Shown: positions 13,691 through 42,584, counted from the first letter of the stretch. The stretch: 45,144 bases of DNA from Gemmatimonadales bacterium (GCA_013140635.1 JABFSM010000046.1:1-45144), one strand, 5' to 3'. A program made the numbers and translations. Notes: generated from the sequence alone by a model not told the origin.

Positions 13691-14491
13691 ATGAAACCGG
13701 CACCCCAAACCAGACGTCGAGACTCTATGCATCTATTCAAACCCGTTGTGACCGCCCTGGCACTCGTGCTGGGGACTGCGCAGTGCCTCAATACGAGTCC
13801 CAATTCGATCGATAACCCCGATATCGATCCCAACGCCACAACCCGTATTCTGTTCATTGGCAATAGCTTGACCTATTACAATGACCTCCCGGACATGGTG
13901 AAAGCGCTGGCCGATTCGGCCGGGATCACAGGGGTCCAGGCCGCCCAGGTGGCCCAACCGGACTACGCTCTGGAGGATCACTATGCAGACGGGAGAGCCG
14001 TCTCTGCCATCCAGGCGGGAGGCTGGCACTACGTGGCCCTTCAGCAGGGGCCATCTTCGACCACGGCCAATCGTGCCAACCTTCGGCAGTGGGCGGCCAC
14101 CTTCGCTCAGATCATTCGAAGCAAGGGCGGCACGCCGGCCATGTTCCAGGTCTGGCCGCAAATCCAGAATTTCTCGACCTTCGACGCGGCCAACGAGTCA
14201 TATCGCCTTGCCGCGGAGGACATTGACGGCCTCCTCTTTCCCGCCGGTAAGGCATGGCAGGCGGCCCTCCGGCGAGATCCCTCAATCCAGCTCTACTACG
14301 ACGGTCTCCACGCGTCGGTGATCGGGAGCTACTTGGCCGCGCTCACGATCTTCGGCGAGTTGTTCGATCGCTCCGTTATCGGCCTTCCTGGCGGGCTCCG
14401 GGTGCCTTCCGGCTCCTTCCTGCTCACGGCGGAGCAGACCCTCTTGCTTCAACAATCCGCCGACGAGGCGAACGGCCGGATCGCGCCATGA
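13691..14491 (+). CDS. SGNH/GDSL-type hydrolase (DUF4886-like), secreted
   Basis: The 266-residue protein begins with a basic n-region (QTRRRD) and a hydrophobic signal segment (LFKPVVTALALVLG). The mature part opens with ILFIGNSLTYYNDLP, the block I motif of the SGNH fold with Ser as nucleophile, and closes with DGLHASVIGSYLAAL, whose Asp-x-x-His completes the triad. An Asn/Gly block is plausible in between (HYVALQQGPSS). Members are esterases or carbohydrate deacetylases; the substrate is unknown. The ATG at 13691 is preferred for the strong GGAAGGAGAG just before it; ATG 13727 is an alternative. The next gene overlaps by ATGA. Confidence 0.82.
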   Translation: MKPAPQTRRRDSMHLFKPVVTALALVLGTAQCLNTSPNSIDNPDIDPNATTRILFIGNSLTYYNDLPDMVKALADSAGITGVQAAQVAQPDYALEDHYADGRAVSAIQAGGWHYVALQQGPSSTTANRANLRQWAATFAQIIRSKGGTPAMFQVWPQIQNFSTFDAANESYRLAAEDIDGLLFPAGKAWQAALRRDPSIQLYYDGLHASVIGSYLAALTIFGELFDRSVIGLPGGLRVPSGSFLLTAEQTLLLQQSADEANGRIAP

Positions 14492-15651
14492 AGCGCCTCG
14501 CGGGCCCCAGCCTTCTTGTGCTGCTATCGGCGAGTCGGGCCGCCGGGGCGCTCGCCGCCCAGGAGCGGGTCATCACCCTCGATCGTCCCGAGGCCCAGTT
14601 GCCGGGGGAGTTCACCCGCGTCACCAGGGTGCGGGAGCTCTCCAGCGGGCGCCTCTTGGTCCTCGATTTCAACGACGCCACCGTCCAGCTCGTCGACTCG
14701 CGCAGCAAGAGCGTTGTGCAGGTTGGGGGCACGGGGGAAGGCCCCCGAGAATATCGGAGCCCGACCGGTCTCTTTTCATTCGGACCCGACCGATCGCTGA
14801 TCGCCGACCAAGGGAACCGGCGCTTTCTTGTTGTCGGCCCTGATGGGACGATCGTGTCGGAGGCCTCCTTTCCCGATCTGGGTGGATTCGGTCTCCTCTC
14901 CGTTCGTGGAGCCGATGCCCGTGGCCGCATTTACTTCGACGGCCCTAACCAGGGATCGGGCCGGACCGGCGGCCGAGACTCGGCGGCGATGCTTCGGTGG
15001 CATCCCGACCGCCCCGCGCGGCTCGATACGATGGGCTGGGTGCAGGTGCAATCGGCCGCGACGGTTCGCAGCGAGGGGGGCCGGATCACGATGACTCGGG
15101 CCATCCGTCCGCTTCGCACTTCGGAGCAATGGGGGGTATCGGAAGAGGGCCGAATCGCGCTGGTCACTCCGGAACCGTATCGGGTGGACTGGCTCTCTGA
15201 AGGGCGGCCTCGGGTGGCCGGGGTGCCGGTGCCGATCCGGGAAACGCCGCTCACCGAGGCTGAAAAGACCGGATATCTCGGGCGGATGCAGGCCGGCGCC
15301 GCGCCGCCACGCGGCTTCTCGATCGGCGGTCAGCCCAGTGGGGGGCCACCCCCTCCCCCCGCCGCTGCCGACGTCGCCGCGGCAGAATGGCCGCCGTTCA
15401 AGCCGCCGTTCTTGGTGGCGAGTACTATGGTGAGCCCGGCCGGGCACCTTTGGGTCAGACGGACACCGGATGCCGCGTCGCAAGCGGAATCGTTCGACCT
15501 GTTCGGGCCCGAGGGGCGCCGAGTGGCGATCGTGTCGGTGCCGGGCGGTGGAAGGCTGGTCGGATTCGCTACGGGGGGGGTCTATTTCGCCCGGAAGGAT
15601 GCCGACGATGTGGAGCACCTCTTCAAGTTCGCTTTGACGCTCTCGCCCTAA
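14488..15651 (+). CDS. Secreted beta-propeller protein (NHL/6-bladed type)
   Basis: A 387-residue exported protein with a signal peptide (MKRLAGPSLLVLLSASRAAG, cleavage near ALAAQ). The body shows repeated propeller-like strands: GRLLVLDFNDATVQLVDS, then a GTGEGPREYRSPTG loop, and DRSLIADQGNRRFLVVGPDG. The GxGxGPxEF/Y loop is characteristic of 6-bladed propellers common in Bacteroidota and Gemmatimonadota. A proline/glycine-rich linker (SGGPPPPPAAAD) lies near residue 290. No catalytic residues are evident; binding or recognition is likely. It overlaps the SGNH gene by 4 bp and is followed 32 nt later by the amidohydrolase, so it belongs to the same operon. Confidence 0.75.
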   Translation: MKRLAGPSLLVLLSASRAAGALAAQERVITLDRPEAQLPGEFTRVTRVRELSSGRLLVLDFNDATVQLVDSRSKSVVQVGGTGEGPREYRSPTGLFSFGPDRSLIADQGNRRFLVVGPDGTIVSEASFPDLGGFGLLSVRGADARGRIYFDGPNQGSGRTGGRDSAAMLRWHPDRPARLDTMGWVQVQSAATVRSEGGRITMTRAIRPLRTSEQWGVSEEGRIALVTPEPYRVDWLSEGRPRVAGVPVPIRETPLTEAEKTGYLGRMQAGAAPPRGFSIGGQPSGGPPPPPAAADVAAAEWPPFKPPFLVASTMVSPAGHLWVRRTPDAASQAESFDLFGPEGRRVAIVSVPGGGRLVGFATGGVYFARKDADDVEHLFKFALTLSP

Positions 15652-20575: not shown

Positions 20576-20590
20576 CGCCGCTCAGCGGCG
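20576..20590. terminator. Hairpin between convergent E1 and histidine kinase genes
   Basis: Perfect 6-bp arms CGCCGC (20576-20581) and GCGGCG (20585-20590) flank the loop TCA. It overlaps the kinase stop codon (20582-20584) and follows the E1 stop by 6 nt. No T-run follows in either direction, so termination is plausible but unproven. Confidence 0.4.
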
Positions 20591-21982
20591 TATCGGGAAT
20601 TCCATCACGAAGGCCGCCCCCCCGTCCGCGGGGGCTTCGTGCCGCAGCCGGCCGTTCATTCGCTCCGCAATCCACCGCGCGATCGAAAGCCCGAGACCGC
20701 TCCCCGCGGCCGAGGTCCGGCCCCGGGCAAAGCGCTCGAAGATCCTGCCCCCATCCGTCGGCGGCACGCCCGGCCCCCAGTCGCGAATCCGAAGCCAAGC
20801 CCACTCCTGGTCGGTGCCGACACTGATCTCCACGGGACTATTCGGTGCGTGGACCAGAGCATTGTCCAGGAGCACCATGATGGCCCGTTCGATCAAGACC
20901 TGGTTGGCAAAGATCGGGGCCGTTTCGAAGTGGCCGATCCGGAAGACGCGGTCACGCCCGAGCGGGGTTCGGCGAGCCCGGATCATCACGGTCGAGGTGA
21001 TGTCGTCCAGGAAAAGCAGTTCGCCGGCTTCGTACTCCGCGGCGGCCTCTCCCCGCGCCATCAGCAGCAGATCTCCGATCACGTCGCCCATGCGGCGCGC
21101 CTCGCCGACGATAATGCCCAACGATTCGGTGTCCGCGGTGTTCCGCGGAGCCGACGTCAGCAGCGATTCGGCCTCACTCATGACGATGGCGGTCGGTGTC
21201 CGGAGCTCGTGGGCCGCGTCGGACAGGAACGCCAGCTGCCGGGCGGCGGCCAGGCGCTCCCGTCCGAAGGCCTCACCAAGGCGCGCGAGCAGCCGATTGA
21301 ATGAGGCGGTGAGCGTGCCCACTTCGTCCGGGATCACACGGTTAGGAATCGGGGGGAAGTCGCGCCTCCCTCCGGCGATGAGCGCCTCGGTGCGCTCCGC
21401 CGCCTCCGCCACCGCGCTGATCGGCCGGAGGGCCGGGCCGGCCGCGAGTACACCGACACCGGCGCTGGCGACGAGCAGCAGGGGAAGGCCGGCCAGGAGC
21501 ACGAGTTGCAGCGTGCGCCGTTGCTGCTCGAGGGATGCACGGGACACGCCGACCAGGACGTGGATTCCCGCTTGGAGCTCGCCGCTGAGGACCCGCGCAC
21601 TGCCGGTCGGGGTGGCGACGGTCGCCGGCCGGGGCACCCGTTGGCTGCCGAGGCTCTGGAGATCGGGGGCGCCGGGAAACCGGCGGCTCCGTCCCAACTC
21701 CCTGCCGTCGGGTCCGTACGCGATCATCGCGCGGTCGCCGTAGATCAGTTCCGCAACGATGTGCGCGACCGCCATCTCTTCTTCTGGAAACTCGGGCCGG
21801 TCCCGAGTGTAGATATCCCGGGCGGCAAGAACCGTTTCCTGGAGCGTCCGGTCGATCTGGGCGCGCGCGCCGCCATCGAGCGCCACGTAGAGCGAGGCGG
21901 CGCCCGCGGCAAGGAGGCTACCGAACCAGGCGAGATAGACGGCGGCGAGCCGGAATCGGAGACCTCTGAAGGGGTACCTCAC
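20582..21982 (-). CDS. Sensor histidine kinase
   Basis: A 466-residue membrane histidine kinase. Helix 1 (about 10-34) and helix 2 (about 157-184) bracket a 120-residue periplasmic sensor domain with no recognised fold. A HAMP linker follows (ALRPISAVAEAAERTEAL), then HisKA with the phospho-acceptor in FLSDAAHELRTP. The ATPase domain has N-box VLLDNALVHAP, G1 RDWGPGVPP, F-box IFERFARG and G2 GSGLGLSIA. It overlaps the response regulator stop by 4 bp (ATGA), so the two are coupled. The pair lies directly downstream of the Rieske/cytochrome cluster on the same strand; a redox or envelope cue is a reasonable guess only. Confidence 0.92.
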   Translation of the reverse strand: MRYPFRGLRFRLAAVYLAWFGSLLAAGAASLYVALDGGARAQIDRTLQETVLAARDIYTRDRPEFPEEEMAVAHIVAELIYGDRAMIAYGPDGRELGRSRRFPGAPDLQSLGSQRVPRPATVATPTGSARVLSGELQAGIHVLVGVSRASLEQQRRTLQLVLLAGLPLLLVASAGVGVLAAGPALRPISAVAEAAERTEALIAGGRRDFPPIPNRVIPDEVGTLTASFNRLLARLGEAFGRERLAAARQLAFLSDAAHELRTPTAIVMSEAESLLTSAPRNTADTESLGIIVGEARRMGDVIGDLLLMARGEAAAEYEAGELLFLDDITSTVMIRARRTPLGRDRVFRIGHFETAPIFANQVLIERAIMVLLDNALVHAPNSPVEISVGTDQEWAWLRIRDWGPGVPPTDGGRIFERFARGRTSAAGSGLGLSIARWIAERMNGRLRHEAPADGGAAFVMEFPIRR

Positions 21983-22662
21983 GGGGCCTCCGAACGAAGC
22001 CCCAGCATGTACCCCGCCCCCCGGATCGTGTGGAGCAGCGGCGGGCGGCCGGACTGGTCCACCTTCTTGCGAATGCGGGCGATGTACACGTCGATGACGT
22101 TCGAGAAGGGGTCGTAGCTCTCGTTCCAGACATGCGTGCTGATCTGGGGCCGATCACACACTTGGTCGCTGTGGCGGGCCAGGTACTCGAGGAGGGCGTA
22201 TTCGGTCGTCGTGAGCTCGATCCGCTGCCCTCCGCGCTCCGCGGTGCGCGGGCCGGTCTCGATCGAGAGATCCGCGACGACGATCGTTTCGGGCCGCAGG
22301 GTGGGAATCCTCCGCGCCACTGCGCGGAGCCGAGCCAGAAGCTCATCGAGCGCAAACGGCTTGACCAAGTAGTCGTCCGCGCCGTGGTCGAGGCCGCTGA
22401 CCCGGTCTTCGATGGCGTCACGCGCGGTGAGCATGACGATCGACACGAGGTTTCGGGCGGCTCGCAACTCGCGGGCGAGCGTGAGCCCTGAGCCATCAGG
22501 GAGCATAACGTCAAGCACCAGCGCTTCGTAGCTTCCCGCCCCGAGTTTGGCCCGTGCCTCCGCCAGCGATCCCGCGACGTCCACGGCATGGGCCGCTTGC
22601 CTCAGACTCTTGGCGAGAGATGCGGCAAGGCGAGGTTCGTCTTCGACAACCAGCAAACGCAT
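21979..22662 (-). CDS. OmpR/PhoB-type response regulator
   Basis: A 227-residue regulator. The receiver domain (1-115) has acidic pocket EDE (8-10), phospho-acceptor Asp in ALVLDVMLPDGSG (near 51), Thr in MLTARDA and Lys in YLVKPF. The C-terminal winged helix (about 130-225) includes TTTEYALLEYLARHSDQV and the recognition region SNVIDVYIARIRKKVD. The ATG at 22662 is preferred over the 18-codon-longer frame because GGAGGAGG lies 8 nt before it. The gene encodes the partner of the overlapping sensor kinase. Three 11-bp tandem repeats just upstream (22729-22761) fit binding by a tandem OmpR-type dimer and hence autoregulation. Confidence 0.94.
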   Translation of the reverse strand: MRLLVVEDEPRLAASLAKSLRQAAHAVDVAGSLAEARAKLGAGSYEALVLDVMLPDGSGLTLARELRAARNLVSIVMLTARDAIEDRVSGLDHGADDYLVKPFALDELLARLRAVARRIPTLRPETIVVADLSIETGPRTAERGGQRIELTTTEYALLEYLARHSDQVCDRPQISTHVWNESYDPFSNVIDVYIARIRKKVDQSGRPPLLHTIRGAGYMLGLRSEAP

Positions 22663-22728
22663 TGGGGCTACCTCCTCCGGCAGCCCCAAGATCGTGCGTC
22701 TTTCAAGCCGGATCAACCACCGAGGCGG

Positions 22729-22761
22729 TTCATCCTGAATTCATCTTGTCTTCAGTTGTTC
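22729..22761 (-). promoter_or_regulatory. Tandem 11-bp direct repeats upstream of the response regulator gene
   Basis: On the plus strand the units are TTCATCCTGAA (22729-22739), TTCATCTTGTC (22740-22750) and TTCAGTTGTTC (22751-22761). The exact 11-bp period matches the helical-turn spacing used by OmpR/PhoB-family regulators. The third unit runs into the end of the preceding gene (stop at 22752-22754). Probable self-binding site of the adjacent regulator. Confidence 0.5.
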
Positions 22762-25118
22762 GGTGCTCCGGATTGGATCCAGCTCCTCACTTTGTCGATG
22801 AAACTCTGCGGAAGCTTCCCGCTCGGCGGCATCAAGGGCCCGTTGGTCCCCTGCATGGTGCCGACCAAGAGCCCGGTGTTGGGATTGCCGGGCGTCACAT
22901 ACTTGGTGCTGTTGGTCACCAGGGCGGCATACCCCGTGGTTCTCGAGGACAAGTCGGGCTTCTGTTTTCCCGGCACATGGCAGCCACTGGTGGCGCAACT
23001 GGCCTGCAGCGTCGGGTAGATATCAGTCGTGAACGAGACCCCGGCACTTGGCGATACCGTCAGGGTGACGGACACGCTCACCGGTGAATTCGAAGCGCCC
23101 CCGGCGGCGACGGGAACCGTGGCCGTGTAGGTGCCGGCCGCGATCGCCCCGAGGGTGGGAGCCACCGTGAGGGTCGCCGGCGCCGTCGATGTGTTGAGCG
23201 AGGCGGACACCCAACCACTCGCCCCGGGGCCGTAGGCAATCGTCCCGACGGCAAGACCGGTCAACGCGCCGCCTCCCGTGTTTGAAACGGCGGCCGTCTT
23301 GGCGGCGGGGCTTGCCCCACCCGCGGTGGCGGAGAAGGCGAGCGAGGCCGGTGAGAGGCCGATCGTGGGAGGGGTGCCGGCCGCGATCGTCAGGGTTACA
23401 GACAGACTCTGCGGTGCATTGCCCGCACCGGAGGCTGAGATAGGCACGGTCGCCGAATACGTTCCCGCCGGCAGCGCGCCGGGCGATGGCGCGACCGTGA
23501 GCGTGGCGGGCGCCGTGGTCGAATTCAGAGATGCGGTGATCCAGCCGCTCCCGCCCCCGCTATAGGTGATCGCCCCGACGGAGAGACCGGCCAGGCTTCC
23601 CGTTCCGGCATTGCCCACACTCACGGTCTTCGCCGCCGGCGCCGCCCCACCGAGAGTCGTCGCAAAGGAGACCGCGCTCGGCGTGAGGGCGATGAGCGGT
23701 GCCGTGCCCGGCGGCGAGAGCACCAACGTGACGGTGACGTATTGCGGGGCGTTGCTCGCGCCGATCGCGCCGACCGGCACCGTCGCGGTATAGGTGCCCG
23801 CCGCGAGGGCGCTGACAATCGGTGTGAGCGTCAGGGTCGCAGGGGCCGTCGTCGCCGTCAGCGTGGTCTGGAGCCAGCCGGCGGCGCCGGTGTACATGGT
23901 CGGGCCGATCGAGATCCCGGTCAGGGTACCGCCCCCTGCGTTGGTAATGGACACGGTCTGCGGCGCCGGGGCAGCGCCGCCCAGTGTCCCGGCGAAGCCG
24001 ACGCTCCCCGGGGTAAGCGAGAGTGCGGCGGGAATGGCGACGCCGGTGACCGTCAGGGTGAAGGTCACGCTCTGGGATCCGGTCACATTGGACGCGCTGA
24101 CCGGTACGACGGCGGTGTAGACGCCGGCGGGGAGTCCCGCCACCGTGGGGGTGAGCGTGAGCGTCGACGGGGCCGATGTCGCCGAGAGTGCGGCAGTGAG
24201 CCAATTGCCGGCTCCTCCCGCGTAGCTGATCGTGCCGATACGAAGACCGTCCAGCGTCCCGCCCCCGCCGTTCGTGATGGCGACGGATCTCGCTTCACCA
24301 CTAGCGGCCAGAGCGGTGGTCGACAACCGGAGCGATGCGGGAACCGGCGCCGAGGTGACCGTCAGGGTAACCCGTACGGTACGCGGGCTGTTGATGGCCC
24401 CTGGAGCTCCGATGCTCACCACCGCAGCATAGGTTCCTGGACTCAGTGAGGTAGCGTCAGGCGTAAGAAGGAGGTTGGCCGGAGCAAGGGTCCCATCGAG
24501 CCGGGCGGCCAGCCATCCGGGGGTGCCGGGCTCGTAGGTCACGTCGACGATTGCCAATCCGGTCAACGGGGCGTCGTTGGCGGGAAGAATCTGCACTTGC
24601 TGGGTGACACCAGGCGTGCCGGTGACGACCCCGAAGCTGGCGGCGGTTGCGGTCATCCCGATGATCGGTCCCACCGCGGTCGGCTCCACCCGGAGCGAAA
24701 GGTCGATCGTGCGCGGGCTGTTGGCCGCGCCGGTTGCCACCAGCGTCAGGCTTGCATAGTAGGTGCCGGCGGCAAGATTTCCTGCCGCCGCCTGCAGCAT
24801 CAGCGTCGTAGGCGCTGCGGTGCCGCTCAAGGAGGCGGTCAGCCATCCCGCCCCGTCGCCGAAGTACTCCACCTTGCCGATCCCGAGGCCGCCGAGGATC
24901 CCCGGCCCGGCGTTCCCGATGGCGATAATCTGCATTGGGGCGAGGGCGTGTGTGAGCGCGCCGAACTCGGCTGAACTCTTCGAGAGCGCCATGACCGGCG
25001 GTCCTTCAGGGTCCGGGTCGAGGCCGGCCGTGGTCACGGGCTGATCGCAGGAGCCGAGGAAGAGGCCCATCGCGGCCACGAGACACCGGACCGCTCGAAG
25101 AGGCATGTCATTTCGCAT
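22752..25118 (-). CDS. Repeat lipoprotein with C-terminal cytochrome c-like domain
   Basis: A 788-residue exported protein. The signal peptide ends in a good lipobox (FLGSC, Cys24). Six tandem beta-sandwich-like repeats of about 105 residues (about 42-690) follow, each with GGxLxGLxIGxIxYxGGAxGW, AxLTLTP and AGTYTATVPV signatures; I do not know a named family with certainty (BACON/Ig-like is the nearest idea). The last 96 residues form a cytochrome c-like domain: SCATSGCH (Cys708, Cys713, His714, a CX4CH heme site) and PLMPPSGKLPQSFIDKVRSWI, with Met763 as probable sixth ligand. It would place a heme on a long stalk outside the membrane. It is last in a run of redox genes, 14 nt after the double-Rieske gene. 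Confidence 0.82.
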   Translation of the reverse strand: MRNDMPLRAVRCLVAAMGLFLGSCDQPVTTAGLDPDPEGPPVMALSKSSAEFGALTHALAPMQIIAIGNAGPGILGGLGIGKVEYFGDGAGWLTASLSGTAAPTTLMLQAAAGNLAAGTYYASLTLVATGAANSPRTIDLSLRVEPTAVGPIIGMTATAASFGVVTGTPGVTQQVQILPANDAPLTGLAIVDVTYEPGTPGWLAARLDGTLAPANLLLTPDATSLSPGTYAAVVSIGAPGAINSPRTVRVTLTVTSAPVPASLRLSTTALAASGEARSVAITNGGGGTLDGLRIGTISYAGGAGNWLTAALSATSAPSTLTLTPTVAGLPAGVYTAVVPVSASNVTGSQSVTFTLTVTGVAIPAALSLTPGSVGFAGTLGGAAPAPQTVSITNAGGGTLTGISIGPTMYTGAAGWLQTTLTATTAPATLTLTPIVSALAAGTYTATVPVGAIGASNAPQYVTVTLVLSPPGTAPLIALTPSAVSFATTLGGAAPAAKTVSVGNAGTGSLAGLSVGAITYSGGGSGWITASLNSTTAPATLTVAPSPGALPAGTYSATVPISASGAGNAPQSLSVTLTIAAGTPPTIGLSPASLAFSATAGGASPAAKTAAVSNTGGGALTGLAVGTIAYGPGASGWVSASLNTSTAPATLTVAPTLGAIAAGTYTATVPVAAGGASNSPVSVSVTLTVSPSAGVSFTTDIYPTLQASCATSGCHVPGKQKPDLSSRTTGYAALVTNSTKYVTPGNPNTGLLVGTMQGTNGPLMPPSGKLPQSFIDKVRSWIQSGAPNN

Positions 25119-25132
25119 CGTGAGGATACCGG

Positions 25133-25945
25133 TTAGTCGTCGTCGTCGCGGTTGCCGGGCACGGCGGAGCCTCGAATGCGGAGCGTGCCGGTGCTTGCAT
25201 CGAGCGTAACCATGAGCGCGGTCAGGCCGGTCTCGGCCGGTCCTTCGAGCAGAGCGCCGTCAGGCGCAAACCGGGCGCCATGCTTGGAACAGCGCCAGCC
25301 GCTGCCGGTTGGATCGATCACATACTGTTCATGGGGGCAGGCCAGCCCATAGGCGGCATAGGTCGAGACCCCAAGGCGAGCGACGCCGATCGGCACCGTG
25401 GTATTGCCGTCGACTCGAGCGACTCCGCCGATTGCCGCGAGCGCGGGAAACGAGGACAGACGGATCGTCAGGTCCACATTGCCACCCCCGCCGCTCACCA
25501 TGAGCGTGCCGGCTGCGGTATCGAGGGTGGTTTGCAGCTTGACCAGATCGGTCGTGCGCTGGCCGCCGGTCCAGGTGCCCGCGGTGTTCCACGTTGCGCC
25601 ATGATTCGGGCAGCGGAACCCGCCACCACCCGGCGTCACCGTCGTGCCCGCATGCGGGCAGGCCAGCGAGAAGACATCGTAGGATGCCGCGGAGGAGCGG
25701 ACGGCGGCCAGCGGCACGGGCGCGCCGGTGATGACCGCCATTCCTCCGACCGTGGCCAGCGCAGGATAGTCCGCGAGCCGAATCGAGAAACCGTCGAGGT
25801 TTGCGGCGGGGCCCGTCAGGCCCGCACCCCCGATGATGCCGTCGCCGCAAGCGCTTGCCAACAGCGCCCCGAGCGCGGCAGCGGTCGAACTCTGCAGAAA
25901 CTCCCGTCGGCTTACTTCGCCGCACCCCCCTCGGCAGTCACACAT
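25133..25945 (-). CDS. Tat-exported protein with two Rieske [2Fe-2S] domains
   Basis: The 270-residue protein has a Tat signal (SRREFLQSS, residues 12-20) followed by ASAC, so it may be a Tat lipoprotein at Cys33. Two complete Rieske sites follow: Cys96-x-His98 with Cys112-x-x-His115 (CPHAG and CPNHGATW), and Cys203-x-His205 with Cys219-x-x-His222 (CPHEQ and CSKHGARF). Each domain has the usual preceding strand pattern (LADYPALATVGG, LSSFPALAAIGG), so the protein arose by internal duplication. A Cys-rich stretch (CDCRGGC) precedes the twin arginines. Rieske clusters pass single electrons; two in one chain suggests an electron relay. It lies 3 nt after the single-Rieske gene. Confidence 0.9.
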   Translation of the reverse strand: MCDCRGGCGEVSRREFLQSSTAAALGALLASACGDGIIGGAGLTGPAANLDGFSIRLADYPALATVGGMAVITGAPVPLAAVRSSAASYDVFSLACPHAGTTVTPGGGGFRCPNHGATWNTAGTWTGGQRTTDLVKLQTTLDTAAGTLMVSGGGGNVDLTIRLSSFPALAAIGGVARVDGNTTVPIGVARLGVSTYAAYGLACPHEQYVIDPTGSGWRCSKHGARFAPDGALLEGPAETGLTALMVTLDASTGTLRIRGSAVPGNRDDDD

Positions 25946-25948
25946 CGC

Positions 25949-26464
25949 TTACACCTTGACCATGGCGGCCGCCCAGCCCGCCGCGTCTTTGTCGCTCTCG
26001 AACACTCGATCAGGATCCACATACACCTGGCTCCCATCCGTTCGGATCGGGAGCCGATCCATATGGCGGGTGGCCCGGCCCGAAATGAACTTCCCGTCCG
26101 GCTCGTATTTCGACTTGTGCTTCGAGCATTGAAAGCGATTGTCCTCGTTCAGCCAACGGAGCGCCGTATTCTGGTGCGGACAACTGAGCGCGAAGGCGTA
26201 TAGCGCACCCTGGTAGCGCACCAGGATGAGCTGGTTGTCCTTGTCGATGGTCGTGCCGTCCGTGGCGGGGATCGGATAGGCGACTTCCGTCGCGCGGACC
26301 CGCCTGCGCCCTGTGGCCGCGGTCACGGAAAGCGCGGCGGCGTGCCGGGCCGAAAGACCGAGGCCCAGGAACACCGTGGTCGCGAGGCTCATCGCTTCGC
26401 GGAGAAAAGCGCGGCGATCTTCGATCGCACTGCAATCGTGGCAGGAAGAGCGAACTGGCGGCAT
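25949..26464 (-). CDS. Tat-exported Rieske [2Fe-2S] protein
   Basis: A 171-residue protein with a Tat-like signal (EDRRAFLREA then a hydrophobic stretch to about residue 45). The Rieske site is Cys95-x-His97 (CPHQNTALRW) and Cys113-x-x-His116 (CSKHKSKYEPDG), followed by RHMDRLPIRTDGSQVYVD. Like the next gene, it carries extra cysteines ahead of the twin arginines (SSCHDC). Uncleaved Tat anchors are usual for Rieske proteins of bc complexes, so membrane attachment facing the periplasm is expected. It sits 25 nt after the b-type-cytochrome-like gene and 3 nt before the double-Rieske gene, in one probable operon. Confidence 0.88.
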   Translation of the reverse strand: MPPVRSSCHDCSAIEDRRAFLREAMSLATTVFLGLGLSARHAAALSVTAATGRRRVRATEVAYPIPATDGTTIDKDNQLILVRYQGALYAFALSCPHQNTALRWLNEDNRFQCSKHKSKYEPDGKFISGRATRHMDRLPIRTDGSQVYVDPDRVFESDKDAAGWAAAMVKV

Positions 26465-26489
26465 AGTCTGAATCTCCCGAGAAATGCGA

Positions 26490-27110
26490 TTACTTGAACA
26501 ACAGCATCATGGCCCAACTCGTAACCGAAAGGCCCATGGACACCAGGGCCACGTTGCGGTGCTTCTCGCGCATGGCCTGGGACCCTTCCGCGTCGTCGGC
26601 CAGCTGGACCCCTGCCCAGGTGAAGCCGGCGCCGGCGGCGACGAAAAGCAGCGAGTGGATGTATCGTTTGGCGCGTCCGGCAGGATCCTTCCGACTATCC
26701 CACAGGTTCCAGAGCCCGGTGATCGTATTGGCCGAGAAGACCACCGCCGTGGCGGTGGCGAGAGGGCGGTGCAGATTGCGCGCCCACTTCGGGGCGTCGG
26801 TGGACTTCTTGAGGATCTGGTCGCCGGTGACGAAGCTCCCCGCGAAGAGCGGCAGCATCGCGAAGCTCAGCGTCTTGTGGAGCGCCACCCGCGTCCGGTA
26901 GAAGCCGCTATACTCGATCGCGGTGGCGCGGCGGCGCCGCCGGCCGGTATCGGCGGGCACCGAGGCGGCGTTAGGGTCTATGCCGAGACGGAATGACAGT
27001 CGCGGCCGGACGGTGCCGGCCGAGGAGAGGGCCGCCGCCGGAGGGGATACGCTGCTGCCGCCGCCCGGCGCGGCGAGCAGCTGTGCGATGAGCATCACGC
27101 TCGTTTGCAT
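26490..27110 (-). CDS. Four-helix membrane protein, candidate diheme b-type cytochrome (paralogue 1)
   Basis: A 206-residue protein with an N-terminal signal-like segment (MQTSVMLIAQLLAAP), a basic linker (RRRRRATAIEYSGFYR) and four membrane helices (about 79-98, 115-135, 152-170, 185-204). One histidine stands at the start of each helix: His78 (ALHKTLSF), His114 (NLHRPLAT), His152 (YIHSLLFV), His184 (EKHRNVAL). With alternating topology, His78/His152 and His114/His184 fall on opposite faces, which would allow one heme on each side, as in cytochrome b561. The spacing is identical to the paralogue at 27910. The family is not one I can name. The ATG at 27110 is preferred over a longer frame that overlaps the upstream gene. 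Confidence 0.72.
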   Translation of the reverse strand: MQTSVMLIAQLLAAPGGGSSVSPPAAALSSAGTVRPRLSFRLGIDPNAASVPADTGRRRRRATAIEYSGFYRTRVALHKTLSFAMLPLFAGSFVTGDQILKKSTDAPKWARNLHRPLATATAVVFSANTITGLWNLWDSRKDPAGRAKRYIHSLLFVAAGAGFTWAGVQLADDAEGSQAMREKHRNVALVSMGLSVTSWAMMLLFK

Positions 27111-27123
27111 AGTATGCCGCCGC

Positions 27124-27624
27124 CTAGACCGCGAGGAGCGCGGTGCCGAGCAACAGCGAGCCAAACCAGAGCGCCAAGCTAGCCCAGGCCGAGCCGCGGA
27201 GACGCCGCCAGGCGCGCTCCGGGCGCGCGCTTCCGGCCCAGAGTTCGCGTTCCGTTCGTTGGAGGAATGCGCCGTTGCCGAGGAGGATCACAATCAGCCC
27301 CATCTTGAGCCAGAAGACCGGGGCGAAGAGCAACGATTCCAGATCGGCGGCCAGGAGGAGCCCGCCGCTCACGAATGTGACCAGGAGACCGAGGAGCACC
27401 GGGCGATGGATGCCGCGGAGTTCGCTGAGATGGGTTCGATCCGTCTCGGCGCCCGAAGGTACGAACCGGAGCGTGGCGCGATCGGTCGCGAGCGCGAATC
27501 CGCCGGCAACGAGGAGCCCGCCGAGGTGCGCGAACGTCACGAGCGTCGACAGGACATTCGAGTTGTTGTAGGACGTCGCCCAAGGCGAGGCGAGCTCCGT
27601 CAGTGTATCGGTGAGTGAGAGCAT
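27124..27624 (-). CDS. Four-helix membrane protein of unknown function
   Basis: A 166-residue integral membrane protein with helices at about 25-47, 75-93, 103-122 and 145-165. Histidines at 33 (VTFAHLGGLLVAGG), 65 and 73 (LRGIHRPVLLG) lie in or near helices 1 and 2, so heme or quinone contact is possible; resemblance to CopD/DUF2214-type membrane proteins is only impressionistic. The ATG at 27624 has AAAGGA about 7 nt upstream and is preferred over a frame starting at 27672 that would run through the promoter. A sigma-54-like promoter lies 46 nt upstream. The next gene (b-type-like) begins 13 nt after its stop. Confidence 0.72.
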   Translation of the reverse strand: MLSLTDTLTELASPWATSYNNSNVLSTLVTFAHLGGLLVAGGFALATDRATLRFVPSGAETDRTHLSELRGIHRPVLLGLLVTFVSGGLLLAADLESLLFAPVFWLKMGLIVILLGNGAFLQRTERELWAGSARPERAWRRLRGSAWASLALWFGSLLLGTALLAV

Positions 27625-27669
27625 GGTGGATCCTTTGTCGGTGCGGCGGTGTCGTGACGGCTTACCTCG

Positions 27670-27684
27670 CATGGCAAGTGCCAG
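27670..27684 (-). promoter_or_regulatory. Sigma-54-like (-24/-12) promoter of the Rieske operon
   Basis: On the minus strand the sequence is TGGCAC-TTGCC-ATGC, matching the consensus TGGCAC-N5-TTGC at all but one position, with the required GG-N10-GC. The -12 GC lies 46 nt before the start codon at 27624, giving a leader of about 35 nt. Confidence 0.6.
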
Positions 27685-27787
27685 CTTCGGCGGTAGCGCG
27701 GAGAGTTGCAGCCATCGTGGGCCGGAAGAATGAAATCGAATCCATTGCTGTCATATCCGGCGCTCGGTGATGCGACGGGGACGGCGC

Positions 27788-27805
27788 ATGTTGCAGTGGC
27801 TTGCA
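27788..27805. promoter_or_regulatory. TTGCA-N5-TTGCA repeat upstream of the sigma-54-like promoter
   Basis: Direct repeat TTGCA (27791-27795) and TTGCA (27801-27805) with a 10-bp period, the first being part of CATGTTGCA. The same TTGCA-N5-TTGCA pattern and CATGTTGCA recur upstream of the paralogous gene (28602-28616 and 28656-28664). Located about 107 bp upstream of the -24 box, a usual enhancer distance. Confidence 0.35.
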
Positions 27806-27909
27806 CAGAGAGGAGATCGTGGATGACAGCTTCATGAATCGTCGCATGAATGCCGGGTGAACATCATTTCGCGAAATCGCTCGATGCATGGCCGATTGGC
27901 AATTCTCCT

Positions 27910-28521
27910 CTAGCGCGTGAGGATCATCACTGCCCAGTTGAGCGTCGCTATGGCCATCGAGGCCATTCCCACCGTGCGATGGAATCGCCCCGGGTCCTCG
28001 CGATTTCGCGCGCTTTCGGCCAGCGACGTGCCGGTGTAGGCGAATCCCGCCCCAGCCGCGAGGAAGAGCAGGGAGTGCACCGTCCTCTTCACTTGGCCGC
28101 GCGGGTCCTTCCTGCCCTCCATGAAATTCCAGACGCCGGTGATCGTATTTGCCGTGAAGAGGGCCGCGGTGCCATAGGCGAGCGGCTTGTGGAGGCTTCT
28201 CGCCCAGTCCGGCGGGTTGTTGCGATTCGTGAGAATGGCGTTGCCGGTGACGTATGAACCGACGAACATCGGGATCATCGCATAGCTCAGGGTGCGGTGG
28301 ATCTTGAGGCGCATCCGGTATCCGTCGCCGTATTCGATGGCCTTGATGTGCGGGCGGCTTCGGGCCGTGTCCGGTTCAGCCGCTGTGCGAAGGGTGCTCC
28401 AATCGACGGCGGCTCCATGAATCGCCGGGACGGCGGTCTTGAGAGCGGTGTCTCCCACCGCGAGCGCGGGTGAGGCCGTCGAGGAGAGGGTCTGCGCGAT
28501 CAGCGCAAAGACGGTATGCAT
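27910..28521 (-). CDS. Four-helix membrane protein, candidate diheme b-type cytochrome (paralogue 2)
   Basis: A 203-residue paralogue of the protein at 26490: signal-like start (MHTVFALIAQTLSSTA), linker with HIKAIEYGDGYRMRLKIHR, then four helices each opened by a histidine: His75, His111, His149, His181. The intervals 36, 38 and 32 equal those of the paralogue, and shared stretches include FTANTITGVWNF, DPRG and HSLLFLAAGAGF. Conservation of exactly these histidines supports heme coordination rather than chance. Start ATG 28521 lies 44 nt after a sigma-54-like promoter. It is separated from the rest of the cluster by 285 bp and is probably a separate transcript under the same control. Confidence 0.72.
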   Translation of the reverse strand: MHTVFALIAQTLSSTASPALAVGDTALKTAVPAIHGAAVDWSTLRTAAEPDTARSRPHIKAIEYGDGYRMRLKIHRTLSYAMIPMFVGSYVTGNAILTNRNNPPDWARSLHKPLAYGTAALFTANTITGVWNFMEGRKDPRGQVKRTVHSLLFLAAGAGFAYTGTSLAESARNREDPGRFHRTVGMASMAIATLNWAVMILTR

Positions 28522-39734: not shown

Positions 39735-40112
39735 CCGACCATGGGCTCTCGCGTCAGAAACGATGCTCGTACAACAGCTTACCAATTTGTCGGATTTCCG
39801 CCGCCGGGGCAACCTTGGCGGTCCTCGGCGTCGTCCTACGTTGCGGCACTAGATGACAGTTTCACCCGCAGGACAGCAGCCAACCAGGTGCCTGCCAAGG
39901 CGGCGCGGCGCGCCGAATTGGCATGAGTCCGCTCAAGGGGGCCGGTTAGCACGGCTTCCGGCTATTGCTCTAACTCCAATAGCCGTTGGCTGATAGCTGA
40001 TAGCCGATAGCTGCTTCACCATGGCACCCTCGATGCACCTACCCACTCGAATCCTCCGGCCCCGCCGCCGCTCTGGCGGCTTGGACACCCGAGGCGAATT
40101 GAGGTACGCCAA
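39735..40112. other. Divergent intergenic region between kinase and lon
   Basis: This 378-bp gap holds no convincing gene. It contains the repeat at 39959-40015; promoters for both flanking genes must lie here, but I see no clear -35/-10 pair and no CIRCE-type or other heat-shock operator ahead of lon. Confidence 0.5.
39959..40015. repeat. Palindrome plus tandem GATAGC repeat
   Basis: A perfect hairpin, CGGCTATTG (39959-39967) and CAATAGCCG (39977-39985) with a 9-nt loop, is followed by a degenerate tandem array of CTGATAGC units to about 40013. On the other strand the array translates to QLSAISYQ-like peptides, a well-known false-protein signature of a widespread intergenic repeat. Confidence 0.6.
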
Positions 40113-42584
40113 ATGAGCGAACGTTTGACTCTCCCCGTGCTCCCTCTGCGCGATGTCGTGCTCTTTCCCGGTGTCGCGACCTCCATCGGCGCCGGTCGCC
40201 CAGGAACGGTGCGCGCCATCGAAGCCGCGCTGGCCACCCCGGATCGGTTGGTATTCGCCGTTTGCCAGCGTGAAAACACGGAACAGATAACCAGCGAAGG
40301 GCTCTACACTATCGGGACCATCGCCAAGGTCGGCCAGCTGCAGCGCGGGCTCGCCGGGATGCAACTGCTCCTGCACGGGGAGCGCCGGGGCATCGTCATG
40401 CACGTCAGTGAAAAGAACGGCTATCTCGAAGCGATCGTTCGCGAGGCTGAAGAGATGCAGCCGCTCAACGCCGAAGACCCCGCGTTCGTCGGGCTCTACC
40501 GGGAAGTTCGGCTCCGCGCGGCGGAACTCGGACAAAAGTCCGGTCTGCCGGAGGAAGTGGTCCAGCAGGTTTTGAACGGTGTCAACGAGCCCGGTAGCTT
40601 CGCGGACCTCGTGGCGGGCTACATCGACATCCCGGCCCCGCAACGGCAGTCGCTTCTCGAGACCCTGTCGGTGGAAGAACGACTCCGCCGCGTGCTGGTC
40701 CACGTCCAGCGCCAGATCGCGGTGGTCGAAGCCCAGGAAGACATCAAGTCGCAGGTTCAGGAGGAGCTCGGCGAGCGGCAGCGCGAAATGTTTCTCCGCG
40801 AGCAGATGAAGCAGATCCGAAAGGAGCTCGGCGAAGAAGACGAGGCGGACGAGCTCGAGGAGCTCAAGAAGAAGCTCGAGTCGCTTCCTCTCTCGGCAGA
40901 GGCCCGGAAAGAAGTCGATCGCGAACTGGGGCGTCTGGCCCGGATCGGACGCGAGTCGATGGAAACCCAGGTCGTCCGGAACTACCTCGAGACGATCGCC
41001 GAGTTGCCCTGGGGCGAACGGAGCGCGGAACATCTCGACCTCAAGGTGGCCTCCGAAATCCTGGAGAACGATCACTACGCCTTGGGAGATGTGAAAGACC
41101 GGATTCTCGAATTCCTCGCGGTGCGGCAGTTGAAGCAAGCGGGGCGGACGGACGGTGGGGACAGTGAGGACAAGGGGGACGGTAACGCCCCTGCGGTGGA
41201 GCCATCTTCCGACCGTCCATCCGCCAAGGGCCCCATCCTTCTCTTCGTCGGTCCCCCGGGCGTCGGGAAGACCTCGGTCGCCAAATCGATCGCCCGTTCG
41301 ATGGGGCGGAAGTACGTGCGGATCTCGCTCGGCGGCGCGCGTGACGAGGCCGACATCCGCGGCCACCGGCGCACCTACGTCGGGGCGATGCCCGGCCGAA
41401 TCATCCAGGGCTTGAAGCAGGCCGGCACCAAGAATCCGGTCTTCCTCCTCGACGAGGTGGACAAGCTCGGCGTCTCCTTTCAGGGAGATCCCGCCTCCGC
41501 CTTGCTGGAGGTGCTCGACCCGGCGCAGAACGACAGCTTTACCGATCATTATCTCGGTGTGCCGTTCGACCTGAGCGAAGTGCTCTTCATCGCGACGGCC
41601 AACTTCCTTCAGAGCATCCCGGGGCCGCTCCTCGACCGGATGGAAGTGGTCGAGTTTTCCGGGTATACCGAGCCGGAAAAGCTGGAAATCGCCCGGCGAT
41701 ACCTCATTCCCCGTCAGCTCGAAGAGAATGGTCTGGCCGGGCGCGAGGTGGCGGTCTCCGACGAGGCGGTCAAAGAGGTGATTACCGGATACACCCGTGA
41801 ATCGGGAGTCCGGCAACTCGAGCGGGAGGTCGGCAAGGTGGCGCGCAAAGTGGCGCGCCGCATCGCCGCCGACGAGGCGAAGGTCATTACCGTCGATGCA
41901 CCGATGGTCAAGACGTTGCTCGGGCGGCCGAAGGTGCACCCGGAGAAGGCGGCTCGCGACGACGCGACCGGCGTGGCCACAGGGATGTACTACACCCCGA
42001 TGGGCGGCGACATCATGTTCGTCGAAGCATCGACCATGCGCGGGAAGGGTGAACTGGTCCTGACCGGGCAGCTCGGTGACATCATGAAAGAGAGCGCCCG
42101 GGCCGCGTGGACCTACGCGCGGTCCCACGCGGCGGCGCTCAGGATTCCCGATGAGATGTTCGACCGCGACGTGCACATCCATGTGCCGGCAGGCGCCATC
42201 CCGAAAGACGGCCCCTCAGCAGGCATTACCATGGCCACTGCGCTCATCTCGGCCCTGTCGGGGCGTCCGGCGCGGCACGACATCGCGATGACCGGTGAAC
42301 TCACGCTCCGCGGCCGAGTGCTTCCGATCGGTGGCCTCAAGGAGAAGATTCTCGGCGCCGAACGAGCCGGGATCACGCGGGTTGTGATTCCGAAAGACAA
42401 CGAGCCCGACCTCGAGGATCTACCGGAGCTGATTCGGAAGAAGGTTGAAGTATTTCCGGTCCAGGAACTCGGGGAAGTTCTGGCTCTTGCCCTCCGGGGC
42501 GCCTCGTACCGTGAGGGCCGACTTCTCTTCGGCGAGGAAAGCCCGAGGGACGTGCAGCCGCTGTCGATGGGCTACCGGCACTAG
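40113..42584 (+). CDS. lon: ATP-dependent Lon protease (endopeptidase La)
   Basis: An 823-residue Lon protease that degrades misfolded and regulatory proteins. The N-terminal LON substrate domain ([14 protein letters not shown]...) and coiled helical domain occupy about 1-330. The AAA+ module has Walker [10 protein letters not shown] (near 378) and Walker B LLDEVDK. The protease domain carries the Ser702/Lys745 dyad in DGPSAGITM and [14 protein letters not shown], 43 residues apart as in other Lon enzymes. ATG 40113 follows TGAGGT by 7 nt. An acidic, low-complexity insertion (about residues 344-372, containing [12 protein letters not shown]) precedes Walker A and is bounded at DNA level by an inverted repeat. 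Confidence 0.96.
41143..41225. repeat. Inverted repeat bounding the in-frame lon insertion
   Basis: GGCGGACGGACGGT (41143-41156) and ACCGTCCATCCGCC (41212-41225) pair at 13 of 14 positions, enclosing 55 bp rich in GGACA/GGAC units. The whole segment codes for the low-complexity linker of Lon residues 344-371. It looks like a small palindromic element inserted in frame. Confidence 0.5.

Follow-up and report, generated by a model that had tools for sequence, protein, structure and literature searches.

The Rieske proteins of respiratory chains are known to work together with either cytochrome b or molybdenum enzymes. The bc1 and b6f complexes oxidize quinol with bifurcation and combine a membrane b-type cytochrome and a haem-c partner with a Rieske protein that has two histidine and two cysteine cluster ligands, serine and tyrosine hydrogen-bond donors, and a disulphide joining the cluster loops. 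Serine and tyrosine at these positions raise the potential of the cluster (PMC12954380), and a value of +225 mV is still possible when the disulphide is missing (PMC3758308). In eukaryotic cytochrome b561, the histidines of helices 1 and 3 and of helices 2 and 4 are paired over four consecutive helices (PMC10691727), and the superoxide oxidase CybB is a four-helix membrane b-type cytochrome with a link to quinone (PMC11869295).

The DNA analyzed here (hereafter, the window) is a stretch of 45,144 nucleotides from a Gemmatimonadales bacterium. Its phylum, the Gemmatimonadota, is sparsely represented in culture. A preliminary description of the window proposed an undescribed electron-transfer module of six genes with b561-like membrane proteins, Rieske proteins, and a cytochrome c lipoprotein. 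The comparisons reported below indicate that a conserved and apparently undescribed cassette exists, comprising a b561-like protein, a second membrane protein, and a Tat-exported Rieske protein; in contrast, a cytochrome c or cupredoxin accompanies it only at a minority of loci. The literature searched yielded no paper combining Gemmatimonadota, Rieske proteins, and cytochrome b561, and searches for work on alternative complex III or double Rieske proteins did not turn up a description of this set.

Gene Content and Packing of the Locus

All six open reading frames (ORFs) were recovered on the minus strand, running from 28521 to 22752 as first described. Gene A (27910..28521) encodes a four-helix membrane protein with four histidines (H75, H111, H149, and H181). 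It lies upstream of X (27124..27624; longest ORF, 27124-27672), which encodes a further four-helix membrane protein, at a spacing of about 240-290 nt. B (26490..27110; longest ORF, 26490-27164) encodes a paralogue of A, with histidines 96, 132, 170, and 202 in the longest-ORF numbering. These are followed by R1 (25949..26464), encoding a Tat-exported Rieske protein; R2 (25133..25945), encoding a Tat lipoprotein with two Rieske domains; and IG (22752..25118), encoding a lipoprotein with repeated Ig-like segments and a C-terminal monohaem c-type domain. Homologue alignments place the likely starts of B and X at about 27110 and 27624, and with these starts X and the four genes after it are spaced by only 13 nt (X-B), 25 nt (B-R1), 3 nt (R1-R2), and 14 nt (R2-IG).

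Genes for an OmpR-type response regulator and a histidine kinase (20582-22716) lie on the same strand, 35 nt 3' of IG; this pair was not seen at the corresponding locus of the relative G001. Elsewhere in the window, two long ORFs (39933-42182 and 14254-15651; 749 and 465 aa) have no Pfam match at E 0.001.

A and B Are Probably Diheme b-Type Cytochromes

Judged by their sequences, which are about 43% identical, A and B represent paralogous forms of one subunit (A/B). Their description as proteins with four helices and four histidines each was borne out by the ORFs, the alignments, and an AlphaFold2 model of A. Homologues devoid of the four histidines, named beforehand as the finding that would count against the proposal, were not encountered: every one of the 77-78 non-redundant homologues with a readable column has all four. 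In the model of A (pLDDT 82), helices span residues 68-98, 105-136, 143-170, and 177-201, and each contributes one histidine located 4-7 residues from the helix start, which would place the first and third histidines on one side of the membrane and the second and fourth on the opposite side. The histidines are spaced by 36, 38, and 32 residues, and conservation is concentrated on the histidine-bearing faces of the four helices (p 0.0007, 0.023, 0.024, and 0.011, respectively). A/B is thus probably a diheme b-type cytochrome, with H75 and H149 (numbering of A) as predicted ligands of a haem close to one face of the membrane and H111 and H181 as those of a second haem close to the opposite face. 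With regard to orientation, a positive-inside count would direct the first and third histidines toward the cytoplasm but disagrees with an N-terminal signal-like hydrophobic stretch. In one homologue (L046:8822-9595), the N-terminal linker contains CxxCH and may harbor a fused haem-c site.

The arrangement is reminiscent of the core of eukaryotic cytochrome b561 and of CYBDOM (TM1-TM4), which also comprises four consecutive helices with one invariant histidine each, and the A/B histidines can be paired in the same manner, between helices 1 and 3 and between helices 2 and 4. In contrast, there is no significant sequence match to the eukaryotic family (PF03188): the best A/B homologue scored 13.6 bits (cut-off 23; E 0.085), and none of 34 aligned members exceeded the cut-off. 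Among the small-residue positions of eukaryotic b561, H4+4 is small in A/B (91%) and H1+13 partly so (65%), whereas H1+7, H2+14, H3+4, H3+18, and H4+18 are not retained. A Foldseek comparison of A with the b561 structure 4o6y gave an E value of 0.24 and a TM score of about 0.4. More generally, no significant fold was detected for A among solved structures, where the matches were either at chance level or to designed helical bundles; of natural membrane folds, 4o6y and the formate dehydrogenase gamma subunit came closest (E 0.2-0.6).

Several candidate relatives were considered and rejected. CybB and other prokaryotic b561 proteins (PF01292) share with A/B four membrane helices and, as predicted for A/B, a b-type cytochrome character and a link to quinone, but the PF01292 proteins found locally have a different histidine layout, and homology was not supported (14.4 bits, cut-off 30.1; hhalign probability 0.2%). 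Homology to DUF420 (CtaM/YozB) was not supported either (13.6 bits for A, cut-off 30.5; hhalign probability 2.6%). Similarity to the designed 4D2 haem proteins covers a short, repetitive stretch, and a profile-profile comparison between A/B and X was not significant. A, B, and X do not reach the cut-off of any Pfam or NCBIfam family, and A and X have no match in PHROGs or to phage families. Neither A/B nor X can be assigned to a curated family.

X Is a Second Conserved Membrane Protein

X had been introduced simply as another four-helix protein. The four long helices are present in its AlphaFold2 model (pLDDT 94), but the protein is more than a bare helix bundle: two histidines (H49 and H89), two aspartates (D64 and D110), a lysine (K123), and an asparagine (N133; all in longest-ORF numbering) are invariant in 72/72 sequences. 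On the basis of these residues, X is a candidate for a quinone site. No significant fold was found in the PDB, where X, like A, gave just chance-level matches or designed bundles of helices. Weak similarity recurs to four-helix proteins of the DUF2214, DUF6644, UPF0093 (HemJ), and CopD families, with the best E value among X members reaching 1.1e-5 for UPF0093, but the X protein of the window falls below every cut-off (15.4 bits for UPF0093, cut-off 34.2).

Rieske Proteins R1 and R2

The assignments of R1 as a Tat Rieske protein and of R2 as a double Rieske protein both hold. Each exceeds the Pfam PF00355 cut-off and carries a twin-arginine motif, in R2 together with a lipobox. R1 contains one ligand motif (CPH...CSKH; C95/H97/C113/H116), and R2 contains two (CPH...CPNH and CPH...CSKH).

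The R1 family retains the cluster ligands and the hydrogen-bond donors of bc1 and b6f Rieske proteins: the four ligands and Ser118 are present in 79/79 sequences and Tyr120 in 76/79. The disulphide cysteines, in contrast, are present in 0/79. The sequence signature argues for a high-potential cluster in R1, because the serine-tyrosine pair is kept and a missing disulphide does not preclude a positive potential. The arsenite oxidase subunit AioB is likewise a Tat-exported Rieske protein and is matched by the R1 profile (E 7e-11); the NT-26 AioB, like R1, lacks the disulphide and keeps the serine (PMC3758308). R1 itself was rejected as an arsenite oxidase small subunit (TIGR02694, 24.9 bits; cut-off 95.65), and no AioA-like subunit is present among the annotated neighbors in the window.

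Relatives of R2 are mostly single-domain lipoproteins. The doubled form occurs in the window and at L051, L058, L060, L062, L128, and L141, a list in which some loci are the same genomes reached twice. The disulphide cysteine pair is found in about 12/41 R2 domains, and the tuning positions are mostly occupied by alanine and phenylalanine, so the potentials of R1 and R2 may differ widely.

At least two cysteines, mostly as CxxC, directly precede the twin arginines on the cytoplasmic side in 69/71 R1 and 30/34 R2 proteins, and such cysteines were seen in 1/18 of the other Tat-like proteins of the loci. In the window, they are encoded at 26432-26443 in R1 and within codons 1-10 of R2 (25916-25945). 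The feature is missing from R1 of the acidobacterial locus L148.

Conservation and Distribution of the Cassette

Gene order was compared across genomes. An order confined to this genome, the other finding named beforehand as counting against the proposal, was not borne out: A/B, X, and R1, in many cases with R2 behind them, recur in this order in Gemmatimonadota and in some Acidobacteriota. The proposed module is thus a conserved unit, but one of four genes rather than six; the double Rieske protein and the Ig-like stalk, although present here, are local elaborations, found at few loci and in two genomes, respectively. A/B was found in 37 of 101 genomes, a set made up of 100 relatives and the genome that contains the window. 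Counted over non-redundant genes, A/B is followed by X in 52 cases (median gap 4 nt), X by R1 in 61 (16 nt), and R1 by R2 in 22 (-28 nt).

A broader sample identified A/B in 90 of 298 Gemmatimonadota genomes, roughly 30%, and in 6 of 247 Acidobacteriota genomes, with one weak match in each set. The hosts include many soil and lake Gemmatimonadota. Most loci belong to this phylum; nine are in records labeled Acidobacteriota (L096, L097, L114, L125, L132, L140, L143, L145, and L148). The record of L142 (CALQGY020000066.1) is titled Candidatus Kuenenia stuttgartiensis, a title that is probably wrong because the A/B places in this genome (G327) equal those of the Gemmatimonadota genome G247.

Co-occurrence is strong. 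Within the 298 Gemmatimonadota genomes, R1 accompanies A/B in 86 of the 89 with a clear A/B (Fisher p 2e-56), and X does so in 78 (p 1e-49), leaving 11 without X. Pairwise distances among A/B, X, and R1 are also correlated (rho 0.29-0.48, above every permutation), a value from which shared species ancestry has not been removed. That these are simply co-transcribed redox proteins lacking a common unit is therefore improbable: the components do occur alone in some genomes (R1 in 13 and X in 8 genomes without A/B), and their order varies, with X preceding the A/B-type gene at the G001 locus, but genome-wide co-occurrence, correlated divergence, and retention of the cassette in two phyla speak against it.

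No neighboring gene family is constant across loci. In Gemmatimonas-like loci, peptidase-like genes follow the cassette, and at 16-17 loci it lies in divergent orientation to Omp85 and TamB genes (e.g., L122:1785-6779 and L150:6328-9000).

IG and Other Electron Carriers

The assignment of IG as a lipoprotein with a C-terminal haem domain was upheld. The haem motif, CATSGCH, is of the CX4CH rather than the CXXCH type, and the domain is homologous to other haem-c domains, namely the C-terminus of a G001 protein (47% identity, E 4e-30) and those of acidobacterial haem-c lipoproteins (E 9e-8 at L143 and 2e-6 at L125). Its match to Pfam PSCyt1 has an E value of only 0.27. A full-length homologue is found only in G001 (L051/L071), where it occupies the same position. 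A haem-c lipoprotein is thus present in the window and at G001, L125, and L143, and absent beside most cassettes.

Other loci have carrier genes directly upstream of the cassette on the same strand. These encode the haem-c lipoproteins of L125 and L143, a cytochrome c at L105, and plastocyanin-type cupredoxins at L098 and L104. About 28 loci have a nearby upstream gene on the same strand, and in five of these it is such a carrier, compared with a frequency of about 2% among neighboring genes overall, and the link between cassette and carrier is suggestive only. In addition, genes for lookalikes of Cyc2-type fused cytochrome-porins, in which a barrel-like region (FG..F..N.Y) comes after a haem motif, are located near the cassette at L077:1952-3478, L104:5620-6024, and L113:1215-2963.

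Relation to the Respiratory Chain

Among the relatives, 99/101 carry NrfD-type subunits, like those of alternative complex III, and COX1, and the cassette was therefore rejected as a replacement for complex III; with alternative complex III and oxidases near-universal in these genomes, it is an addition to an ordinary chain. The bc-type cytochrome b is patchy (58/101 genomes, with a single weak match in G000). Consistent with the preliminary description, none of A, B, and X is a cytochrome b homologue, as indicated by the lack of any PF00033 or PF00032 match and of a significant fold match. The cassette is comparable to bc1 and b6f complexes in its predicted membrane b-type cytochrome, its serine- and tyrosine-bearing Rieske protein, and, at some loci, a haem-c partner. 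It differs in having no cytochrome b homologue, no loop-joining disulphide in R1, and no constant haem c.

A Working Model for the Cassette and Its Alternatives

A simple model would treat A/B, X, R1, and the carriers as a small quinone-linked membrane electron-transfer unit that operates outward via R1, a reading to which we give about even chances. We infer a single complex, its cofactors, and the direction of the electrons. A/B would move electrons across or along the membrane, and X, beside it, would supply either a third haem or a site for quinone (or another small molecule). Quinol would give up its electrons through the Tat-exported, high-potential R1, which would pass them to one-electron carriers on the outer side. 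Here, these would be R2 and the haem-c domain of IG; in relatives, haem-c lipoproteins or plastocyanin-like proteins may take this role. Menaquinone is the quinone of the phylum, and if it is assumed to be the donor, the path from quinol through R1 to the carrier would run downhill.

By analogy, such a unit would resemble a Rieske/cytochrome b complex in its working while being unrelated to it by descent. In a more specific form, which is possible but doubtful, the cassette would be a second, independently evolved quinol:carrier oxidoreductase of the Rieske/b type, in which a minimal four-helix diheme cytochrome and X take the place of cytochrome b and the acceptor is a cytochrome c or a cupredoxin.

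Alternatively, electrons may enter through the cassette: a donor in the periplasm or outer membrane would reduce R2 and R1, and A/B would be the inward route to quinone or into the cytoplasm. Rieske subunits also work with oxidases, such as the arsenite oxidase whose AioB is matched by the R1 profile, and the Cyc2-like genes could be read in the same way. However, transfer from a high-potential R1 to quinone would be uphill, Cyc2-like genes occur near three loci only, and the window contains no donor enzyme, so that this route is unlikely.

A further proposal, which we consider quite unlikely, is that the set serves or matures another enzyme and has no part in respiration, as in MsrPQ-like periplasmic repair or the handling of haem or copper cofactors. 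X would then be a cofactor protein like HemJ or CopD, and A/B would be an assembly factor like DUF420. The weak matches do recur, to UPF0093 (HemJ), DUF2214, DUF6644, and CopD for X and to DUF4079, DUF420, and b561 for A/B, but those of the window proteins lie under curated cut-offs, the DUF420 comparison failed at the profile level, and no neighboring family is constantly linked to the cassette.

The cassette provides defined proteins that can be expressed and examined by spectroscopy and structure determination. More generally, its pairing of a Rieske protein with two membrane families that have no known relatives would mean either that haem b and a Rieske protein were combined on more than one occasion or that cytochrome b can be replaced by a small transmembrane conduit.
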